Source of the DNA: Flavobacteriales bacterium
GTDB lineage: Bacteria; Bacteroidota; Bacteroidia; Palsa-965
Direction of reading: 5' to 3'
Length of the DNA: 46,650 nucleotides
Assembly: GCA_002737665.1 (NCBI GenBank)
Contig: NSIF01000007.1
Location: 1-46,650 of the forward strand
Shown: piece by piece, positions 13,925 through 17,366 of the stretch
Layout: the number at the start of each line of letters is the position of its first letter
Position numbering within the stretch: the stretch's first letter is position 1
Program-made: the position numbers and the translations under genes
Notes under the pieces: generated by a model
The model's database searches: none
Told to the model about the DNA's origin: nothing
What the model saw: only the letters and a program-made list of their open reading frames with translations

Positions 13925-16201
13925 TTAATTATTTTCCACTTTCTTTTCTTCGCTATTATTTAATGATTCAATAGGTTCTGTCTTTTGGTCAGCAATCATT
14001 TTTTCTTGAGCTAACTTATCTGATTCTTCTTTTTCTTTTTCGATGTCTTTATCAAACAAACGTTTTCCGAAAATGATTTCAAGATCTTCTTTGAAAATTA
14101 CTTCCTTCTCTATTAGTTTTGCAGCTAATTGATCTAATTTATCACGATTGTCGCGAAGTAATTGTTTCGTTTTTTCGTACGCAGAATCAATTAGCTTTTT
14201 AACTTCCTCGTCAATAATTTCAGCTGTTTTGTCACTGTATGGTTTTTGCATCATGAATTCCTGACCGCTTGTATCGTAGTAAGAAATATTTCCAATTTTA
14301 TCATTCAGTCCATAATACATAACCATTGCATAAGCTTGTTTGGTTATGCGTTCTAAATCGCTCAATGCTCCTGTAGAAATTTTTCCAAAGACTACTTCTT
14401 CTGCAGCGCGACCACCAAGTGTAGCACAGATTTCATCGTAGAATTGATCAGTAGTTGTAATTTGTCTTTCATCAGGTAAATACCAAGCTGCTCCTAACGA
14501 ACGTCCACGAGGAACGATAGTTACTTTAACCAAAGGAGCCGCGTGCTCGAGCATCCAACTTACAGTTGCATGACCAGCCTCGTGGAAAGCGATAACTTTC
14601 TTCTCGCCTTTGGAAACAATTTTATTTTTCTTTTCCAGTCCACCGATGATACGATCTACTGCATCTAAAAAATCTTGACGCTCAACAAATTTTTTGTCAT
14701 GGCGAGCTGCAATTAATGCTGCTTCGTTGCAAATGTTTGCAATATCGGCACCAGAAAATCCAGGAGTTTGCTTTGCAAGAAAATCTAAGTCCACTGTTGT
14801 ATCAATTTTAAGTGGTTTCAAATGAACTTGGAAAATAGCTCTTCGTTCATTTAAATCTGGTAGGTCAACAAAAATCTGTCTGTCAAATCTGCCTGCACGA
14901 AGTAGTGCTCGGTCTAATATATCAGCTCTATTGGTGGCAGCAAGAATAATTACCCCAGAGTTTGTACCGAAGCCATCCATCTCTGTCAACAATTGGTTCA
15001 ATGTATTTTCACGCTCATCATTTGAGCCTTGAGCAGCACTTCTTCCACGTGCACGTCCAATAGCGTCAATCTCGTCGATGAAAATGATGCATGGTGATTT
15101 TTCTTTTGCTTGCTTGAATAAATCTCTTACCCGAGATGCTCCTACACCTACAAACATTTCCACGAAATCTGAACCTGATAAGGAGAAAAATGGAACTTTC
15201 GCTTCTCCAGCAACAGCTTTTGCTATTAATGTTTTTCCAGTTCCTGGAGGACCAACCAACAACGCACCTTTTGGAATTTTTGCACCTAAGTCAGTATATT
15301 TTTTCGGATTTTTCAAGAAATCCACAATTTCTTTGATCTCCACTTTTGCTTCTTCCAATCCAGCCACATCGTTGAACGTGGTATTAACCATGGTGTCTTT
15401 GTCGAACAGCGTAGCTTTAGATTTTCCGATATTAAAAATTTGTGATCCACCACCTCCGCCCATTCGTCGCATAAAGAAAATCCAAATGATAATCATTATT
15501 GCCAATGGAAGTATCCACGATAAATGATCTGAAAAGGAGGTACGCTTTATTTCCTCAATAGCAATTGTATAATCCTTTTTCTTTCCTATTGAGGTAATTT
15601 TTTCATTGAAATACTTTTGAGAAATAATACTGCTATCTGTTTTTTTGCAAAGCGCAGCAATGTCAGCATCAGAATAACCTTCTGTTTTTCCGGCTAAAAT
15701 ATCCAGATTTACAGTTGAATCAAGTTTCAACTGCTTTAAATGAACTTGGAAACTTACTATGCGCTCATTAAATCTATTATCCAGCTGTGTTTGAATAATT
15801 ATATCATTGAGATTCTCAGACCAACTATTTTCCAATTTCAAATGTGGCACATGCGGTGGTGTTGCACCTTTCCAATTTTTGAATTTTGCTTTTAAAGCTC
15901 TAACGGAATTGCTTGAATCTGCTGAGGTGTTTAATACAATTTCAAGTTTATTGTTGTCATTACTTATTCTTTGCATTTTTTCAATAGCATGATCTTTAAC
16001 CAATGCTGTAAATTCTGTATAATTTACCTGCGGAATTTCTTCCATCATTGTTGGTACAAAAAAGCTAATAAGGCCTACAACTAAAATGATGTAAACCCAC
16101 ATAAAACCTGATGGCGAGCGTGGAATTTGTGGTTTACGTGGAGTAAATCCGTTTTTACGCTTCTCTTCATTTGAATTACCTTTATTGATATCTTCACTCA
16201 T
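13925..16201 (-). CDS. ftsH: ATP-dependent zinc metalloprotease FtsH with an internal lid-segment duplication
   Basis: A 758-residue membrane-anchored AAA+ protease that degrades misfolded and regulated membrane and cytosolic proteins. Membrane helices at about 34-52 and 229-245 enclose the periplasmic part. The AAA+ domain has Walker A GPPGTGKT (317-324), Walker B IIFIDEID (372-379) and the SRH arginines near 435-441; the protease has HEAGH (540-544) with D615 as third zinc ligand. The protein is longer than the roughly 640-700 usual. The periplasmic part is about 176 residues and holds, at 143-188, a copy of the AAA+ lid segment 449-494 (26 of 46 identical). All catalytic residues are intact, so the enzyme should be active. 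The C-terminal tail is acidic and lysine-rich. It follows rsfS by 85 bases and precedes the LUD gene by 30. Confidence 0.96.
15638..15775 (-). repeat. Diverged copy of the ftsH AAA+ lid-coding segment inside the periplasmic-domain coding region
   Basis: Aligns without gaps with 14720-14857 in the same gene: 26 of 46 encoded residues and about 90 of 138 bases agree by hand count, including a 15-base identical run (15738-15752 and 14820-14834). Shared protein landmarks are NER, FQVHLK, LK-x-D-x-TV-x-LD-x-LA, ADIA and C. The copy is flanked by two short matches, RFNE (143-146) and YFNE (197-200). Confidence 0.88.
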
Positions 16202-16286: not shown

Positions 16287-17366
16287 TTAGAATTTTATCT
16301 TTTCACCATCGGCCCAAAGACTTTCCAGATTATAAAATTGCCTTGTTTCTTTATCAAAAACGTGCACAATAACATTGACGTAGTCAATCAAAATCCAGGT
16401 TTTATTTTCATAGCCCTCACTTCGGTATGGTCGCTCCCCCAAATCTCTTTTTACTAAAAATTCTACTGATCCTGCTATGGCATCAACTTGAGTAGTAGAG
16501 TTACCATCGCATATAATAAAGTAATCACATACTCGGTTTTCAATATTTCTCAAGTCTAGGCAAATTATATTATCTCCTTTTTTTTCCTCAATTGCATTTA
16601 CAATTGCTTTGGCAAGTTGAGAAGCTTTTGGGTCTACAGGTAATGTGTTTTTGGGTATTGCAGGGTTTGTGCTATACGTAGCATCTAAAAGTGTTTCTCT
16701 TTCAGAAGATTTTTTCTTTGCGGAAGATTTTTTAAGTTGATTTCTTGAAAGTGTTTTTGTAATAGACGTTTCTTTGTTCTTCTTTTTTATTTCTTTCGGT
16801 AATGCAGGCGGTATAATTTCTTTTGCTGAATCAACTTTTTTCTTTTCAGGGACTTCTCTTTTTATACCTTCAAAATTTTCCCAATCGAAAATTGGTACAG
16901 CAATTCCGCTTGAATAGGGCTCTTGCTCATTTAATTCTTGTAACCAATCAGGTACTTTTTTAACTGCTGCTTTCTTTTTTGGAGCAATGGTTTTCTTGAC
17001 AAGAACTTTTTTTGTTACTATTTTCTTTTTAGGAGCAGCAACTTTTTTGGGAGCTATTTTCTTTTTAGGAGTAGCAACTTTTTTGGGTGCTATTTTCTTT
17101 TTAGGAGCAGCAACTTTTTTTGTTGCTATTTTCTTTTTAGGAGCAGCAATTTTTTTCGATGCCACTTTCTTTTTAAGAGCAATAATCTTTTTGGGAGCTA
17201 TTTTCTTTTTAGGAGCAACTTTCTTCACAACTTTTTTGGGGCTGACTTTTTTCTTAGCTGCAACTTTTTTAACAACTATTTTTTTGTCTTTTTTAAAAGT
17301 TGTGGATTTTTTTGCTGTTGGCTTTTTTTTAAGTTTTCCAATAACTTTTGTTTTCTTCTTTGCCAT
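16287..17366 (-). CDS. rsfS: Ribosome silencing factor RsfS with long lysine-rich N-terminal extension
   Basis: A 359-residue protein whose C-terminal 115 residues (about 245-359) are a normal RsfS/Iojap domain: ASQLAKAIVNAIEEKKGDNI, DLRNIENRVCDYFIICDGNS, YRSEGYENKTWILIDYVNVI and VHVFDKETRQFYNLESLW. RsfS binds ribosomal protein uL14 and blocks subunit joining when nutrients are short. Usual family length is about 105-130 residues. Here residues 1-138 are a histone-H1-like Lys/Ala/Pro/Ile repeat (60 Lys in the first 140), and 139-243 a mixed, low-complexity linker. No Met occurs between residue 1 and the domain, and the frame is unbroken, so the fusion looks real. It is first in the unit rsfS-ftsH-LUD-cdsA, with a good -7 box upstream. 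Confidence 0.9.
   Translation of the reverse strand: MAKKKTKVIGKLKKKPTAKKSTTFKKDKKIVVKKVAAKKKVSPKKVVKKVAPKKKIAPKKIIALKKKVASKKIAAPKKKIATKKVAAPKKKIAPKKVATPKKKIAPKKVAAPKKKIVTKKVLVKKTIAPKKKAAVKKVPDWLQELNEQEPYSSGIAVPIFDWENFEGIKREVPEKKKVDSAKEIIPPALPKEIKKKNKETSITKTLSRNQLKKSSAKKKSSERETLLDATYSTNPAIPKNTLPVDPKASQLAKAIVNAIEEKKGDNIICLDLRNIENRVCDYFIICDGNSTTQVDAIAGSVEFLVKRDLGERPYRSEGYENKTWILIDYVNVIVHVFDKETRQFYNLESLWADGEKIKF
16992..17219 (-). repeat. Imperfect 36-base tandem repeats coding the lysine-rich RsfS extension
   Basis: Residues 50-125 of RsfS are built from a 12-residue unit of the form KKKIAPKKVAAP, seen about six times with substitutions (IATKKVAAP, IAPKKVATP, IAPKKVAAP, IVTKKVLV). At DNA level the plus strand shows recurring ctttttaggagcagcaa and acttttttgggagct blocks. 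Such tracts change length readily by slippage. Confidence 0.85.

Follow-up and report, generated by a model that had tools for sequence, protein, structure and literature searches.

Members of the FtsH family (TIGR01241) combine two hydrophobic segments with an AAA domain, a lid and a peptidase domain in this order, and FtsH is called essential in bacteria (PMC13097134). The lid corresponds to AAA_lid_3 (PF17862), the helical lid at the C-terminal side of AAA+ ATPases, FtsH and p97/Cdc48 among them. Partial internal duplications are mostly tandem and stay within one compartment. An enlarged domain between the membrane helices has been described for the m-AAA proteases, the mitochondrial FtsH relatives to which AFG3L2 belongs, where it comprises ~25% more residues than in Aquifex FtsH (PMC7949044). 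The FtsH described here shares this larger inter-helix domain, a likeness of size, and differs in that its insert resembles a lid, whereas the enlargement of the m-AAA proteases is not called lid-derived there. A full-text literature search returned no paper on a periplasmic insertion in FtsH, a lid duplication or an internal duplication in AAA proteins, and one plant paper for intragenic duplication of FtsH.

The gene under study lies in the window, i.e. the whole stretch of 46,650 nucleotides analyzed, from a Flavobacteriales bacterium (GCA_002737665.1). The ftsH gene (13925..16201, reverse strand) encodes an AAA+ zinc metalloprotease of 758 amino acids, identified by its open reading frame, TIGR01241 and its Pfam domains. 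The whole protein reaches 822.9 bits with TIGR01241 (cut-off 600), and AAA, AAA_lid_3 and Peptidase_M41 follow each other in order, all above the Pfam cut-offs. FtsH_ext (PF06480) scores 18.2 bits with a cut-off of 25.5 and matches residues 35-84 only. The translation contains the zinc-binding motif HEAGH and a 16-residue stretch for the Walker motifs (A and B). Hydropathy windows place the membrane helices at about residues 29-57 and 223-249; the plan is otherwise normal, with TM1, a periplasmic part, TM2, a Gly-rich linker, AAA, lid and peptidase M41. The protein agrees with the family in curated score, in the order of AAA, lid and peptidase and in its two hydrophobic segments, but differs from it by 63 extra residues ahead of TM2, among which is a second, diverged segment of lid type. 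It is the sole full-length FtsH match in the source genome (1.65 Mb, 60 contigs, 66.6% complete). Outside the insert the enzyme is intact in sequence, and it presumably works normally. The adjoining gene (16287-17366, reverse strand), which we take to be RsfS-like, has a long lysine- and alanine-rich repeat ahead of its conserved part; a similar long tail is found in the RsfS-like protein of the congener G006 and a shorter one in that of G005.

The second lid segment comprises residues 143-188 (15638..15775, reverse strand) and aligns without gaps to residues 449-494 (14720..14857, reverse strand), the working lid segment, which is the likely source of the copy or the sister of that source. 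The original prediction had given 26 of 46 identical residues, about 65% identity at the DNA level and a 15-base identical run for this pair, and recomputation returned exactly these coordinates and values, with 89 of 138 identical bases. The 46 codons contained neither an indel nor a stop; their first, second and third positions were identical in 31, 36 and 22 cases, respectively. When residues 53-228 were compared without gaps to the part from residue 253 onward (BLOSUM62), the top score was 131; shuffling residues 53-228 100 times gave no score above 46. In the full-length protein the AAA_lid_3 profile matched twice at E up to 1; when residues 143-203 were scanned alone, they were matched with E 2.1e-5 and 24.4 bits, which is below the Pfam cut-off of 27.2, and the match was limited to profile positions 2-24 of 45. 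In all, 46 residues of the insert align gap-free to the protein's own lid, whereas the match of the insert to the family is partial and below the cut-off, no ATPase core is attached and the predicted place is outside the cytoplasm. The insert does not directly follow the AAA core, since it precedes TM2 and the core starts after TM2. In comparison to 32 aligned lids, the copy deviates at positions that are at least 90% invariant, for example the P and the second G of TPGFSG, and it lacks the NEAA stretch. Lacking a P-loop, the copy cannot serve as part of an ATPase.

Alignments with congeners delimit an insert of 63 residues (143-205; 15587..15775, reverse strand), the 3' end of which could shift by a few codons. 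By visual count on the alignments, the spacing between N142 and E217 is 74 residues in this FtsH and 11 at the corresponding place in two congeners (L004 and L009). The insert sits ~20 residues ahead of the second membrane helix, and the lid-derived segment is flanked by the two hydropathy helices, as had been proposed; a periplasmic location is thus predicted. Only residues ~143-188 are demonstrably similar to the lid, and the tail of the insert (residues 189-205; 15587..15637, reverse strand) is not: an extension of the copy into residues 189-213, suggested by eye from KYFNEK and KKFVER, was rejected, as its score was reached by 31% of 2000 shuffles. The tail does show a short similarity to the beginning of the segment. 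Among 12,246 ten-residue pairs within residues 53-227, four of the five top pairs connect residues 142-151 with 196-205, in overlapping registers of one similarity, and a pair without relation to it, at 117 and 154, reaches an equal score. Of the earlier proposal that RFNE (143) and YFNE (197) represent a duplicated target through which a lid segment recombined at a shared NER stretch, the short similarity stands, while the duplicated target and the recombination are not established by it. The pairs would fit a short direct repeat around the segment, and the origin of the other ~17 codons of the insert is uncertain.

To compare the region with homologues, as the original prediction had proposed, FtsH proteins of related genomes were aligned. 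In all six congeners the FtsH match splits in two, with the first part ending at residues 139-146 and the second beginning at 205-213. A similar break was obtained in four of five other members of the family (the first segment ended at 137-148 and the second began at 198-221); from the fifth, G010, no FtsH was obtained. From 90 expected FtsH loci, 80 homologous N-terminal parts were gathered, as two loci gave no protein and eight were dropped because the AAA start motif was missing or near the end. In an alignment of 65 of these (15 were omitted for size), the columns of the insert held at most 14 residues in any sequence. In the relatives compared, the segment is therefore no ordinary part of the periplasmic domain. 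When the lid copy and the own lid were subjected to BLAST against all 80 N-terminal parts, no carrier besides this FtsH was found; one further match (L064, E 0.75) was taken as chance. Three homologues (L070, L075 and L079) have ~15 extra residues before TM2 at almost the same place as the insert, indicating that the site seems to tolerate changes in length.

Further carriers were sought in wider sets. Among 395 genomes of the class, 66 matched residues 143-232 at E up to 1e-9 and two matches occurred in the source genome only; since 329 genomes gave no match, an ordinary lid often falls under this strict threshold, and a less similar lid insert would escape it. In the phylum set (395 genomes; residues 160-235, E up to 1e-6) the source genome was the sole match; the non-matching genomes listed for this set belong to that class too, so that there is at least partial overlap between the sets. 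Within the order (12 genomes), the lid copy and TM2 were found in one stretch in the source genome only, and a scan of viral contigs gave 18 pattern matches, none of which was confirmed.

We regard an old, in-frame partial duplication of the lid, placed in a loop of variable length in an FtsH that is normal elsewhere, as the probable explanation of these results, a reading that rests on one incomplete genome (66.6%, 60 contigs). To narrow down the source of the copy, it was compared to the lids of relatives. It shares 24-27 of 46 residues and 78-90 of 138 bases with lids of congeners, and 24-26 residues and 75-80 bases with three lids of other genera; with amino acid identities this similar, protein identity singles out no source. 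The insert matched FtsH reading frames of the fetched loci, while none of nine non-FtsH P-loop reading frames was matched at E up to 10. In a search of PDB sequences with the insert as sole query, the top matches among the best 60 of 126 were p97 lids (E 3.1e-9) and not FtsH chains, with AFG3L2 at 4.2e-5. This counts against the duplication, and the matches show the general lid character of the insert.

That the segment was taken from the FtsH lid of another organism by illegitimate recombination, a variant of the duplication, is unlikely. With 27/46 residues and 90/138 bases, the lid of G006 is no more distant from the copy than the own lid is (26/46, 89/138). A tree that joins the copy to the own lid and one that sets it outside the pair of own and G006 lids differ by only 0.3 log-likelihood units, and the copy has KLD as in congeners, where the own lid has KID. 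However, a duplication older than the later changes in the own lid would give this pattern as well, and on grounds of economy the copy likely originated in this gene.

The age of the copy and the constraint acting on it were also considered. At third codon positions the copy and the own lid agree at 22 of 46 sites, while the own lid and six congener lids agree at 14-25 of 46. This bears out the drift between the copies noticed in the original prediction, and a divergence of congener depth speaks strongly against both a recent duplication and a mere copying artefact. The loss of conserved lid residues together with the many third-position changes likewise indicates that the copy is not fresh. 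It weighs against the duplication that silent change has reached the depth of the congeners while the segment is absent from every congener sampled, as the event would then have been an early one in the lineage, or losses occurred elsewhere. Codon models were applied to the 46 codons in five sequences chosen from ten (the copy, the own lid and the lids of L004, L005 and L008). With free branch lengths, the omega of the copy was ~0.18, and neutrality was worse by 1.6-1.8 log units (2dlnL 3.2 and 3.6), which is not significant. Under one clock for the copy and the own lid, a model that takes the own lid as the source although the tree placements differ by just those 0.3 units, omega was 0.24 (lnL -503.10, compared to -507.10 at omega 1, a difference of 4.0 units), and a single omega for all branches was worse by 19.8 (lnL -522.90). 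The omega of the copy is 17- to 27-fold the background, and all omega figures are rough, as kappa was fixed and several branch lengths were at or near their bounds. The proposed test for purifying selection gave a divided answer, with neutrality worse by 4.0 log units under the clock and no significance without it. The copy is much freer than the working lid but perhaps not wholly neutral.

These values bear on a stronger form of the duplication reading, not exclusive of it, by which the insert would have a selected function: as a helical bundle resembling a lid, it would bind HflK/C-like partners, substrates or adjacent subunits. An omega below 1 under the clock and 46 codons free of indels and stops speak for it, although the open frame is weak evidence of function, because a stop or frameshift would break a usually essential gene. 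Against it stand the raised omega of the copy relative to the background, the lost conserved lid positions and the fact that the full insert is known from one sequence alone, and we hold such a function to be rather unlikely. Somewhat more doubtful is the further proposal that a piece of the cytoplasmic lid of FtsH was put to new use as a folded element across the membrane and is kept by selection, which would provide FtsH of this lineage with a second, non-ATPase lid-like module near the membrane, where substrates and partners meet it.

An assembly or binning artefact, in which the contig joins different genomes inside ftsH, would have to be considered for an incomplete assembly of 60 contigs, and a contig end of a genome from another family (G187) gave further reason to do so. 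This end (L138, G187:C17:30000-36632, last 220 bases) stops within ftsH at the counterpart of residue 201. Compared to the window, its last 34 bases have seven mismatches and the next 118 (~residues 212-251) none, so that beside the insert the contig shares a mismatch-free stretch that its own congeners do not: five of these are 36-49% identical to this FtsH in the TM2 region and a sixth, G215, gave no match. Past ~150-190 bases from its end, the G187 contig resembles its own family. A DNA search with positions 15400-15900 returned G187 with 94% identity over 200 bases, G006 with 75% over 154 and G004 with 69% over 144, and no match in G002. The identity over 118 bases means that a chimera or an exchange touches the very spot of the insert. 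On one reading the contig end of G187 is chimeric or exchanged and not inherited, and on the simplest reading it would stem from a strain close to the species of the window. G187 was rejected as a second carrier, because its contig, ending at the counterpart of residue 201, covers the last five codons of the insert only and not the lid copy. Those five codons have a counterpart there in 12 of 15 bases, which lends weak support to the existence of the insert, or at least its end, in a second strain, and argues against a misjoin. A misjoin is further opposed by the frame, which is open across 63 codons, by both flanks, which run on as FtsH of the same genus, and by the RsfS-like gene adjoining ftsH, which matches its counterpart by the ftsH of G006. 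In addition, the copy is unlike a piece of a working FtsH, as it differs at lid positions that are otherwise nearly invariant. Taken together, we judge an artefact to be improbable. That an ordinary, older periplasmic element came to resemble a lid by convergence can be dismissed almost entirely, given a score far above that of the shuffles, the 15-base identical run and the lack of the segment in every aligned homologue.

In the partial duplication that we favor, ~46 codons of an FtsH lid, either its own or that of a close relative, would have been copied between the periplasmic domain and TM2, in this lineage but not in the congeners sampled. Since the length of the loop varies among homologues, FtsH probably tolerates the insert; both the duplication as mechanism and this tolerance are what we infer. 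As a guess, the copy might form a small helical decoration near the membrane that is weakly constrained by folding or by partners. Most likely, the insert is genuine and confined to this lineage, an oddity of a well-known protein that one incomplete genome shows. A segment of the ATPase domain in the cytoplasm appears to have been transferred to the periplasmic part of that protein, with the frame preserved while many silent changes accumulated. Should further strains bear the insert out, it would be a natural insertion mutant at a membrane-proximal loop of FtsH and a test case for whether such a segment decays or is taken up into use.
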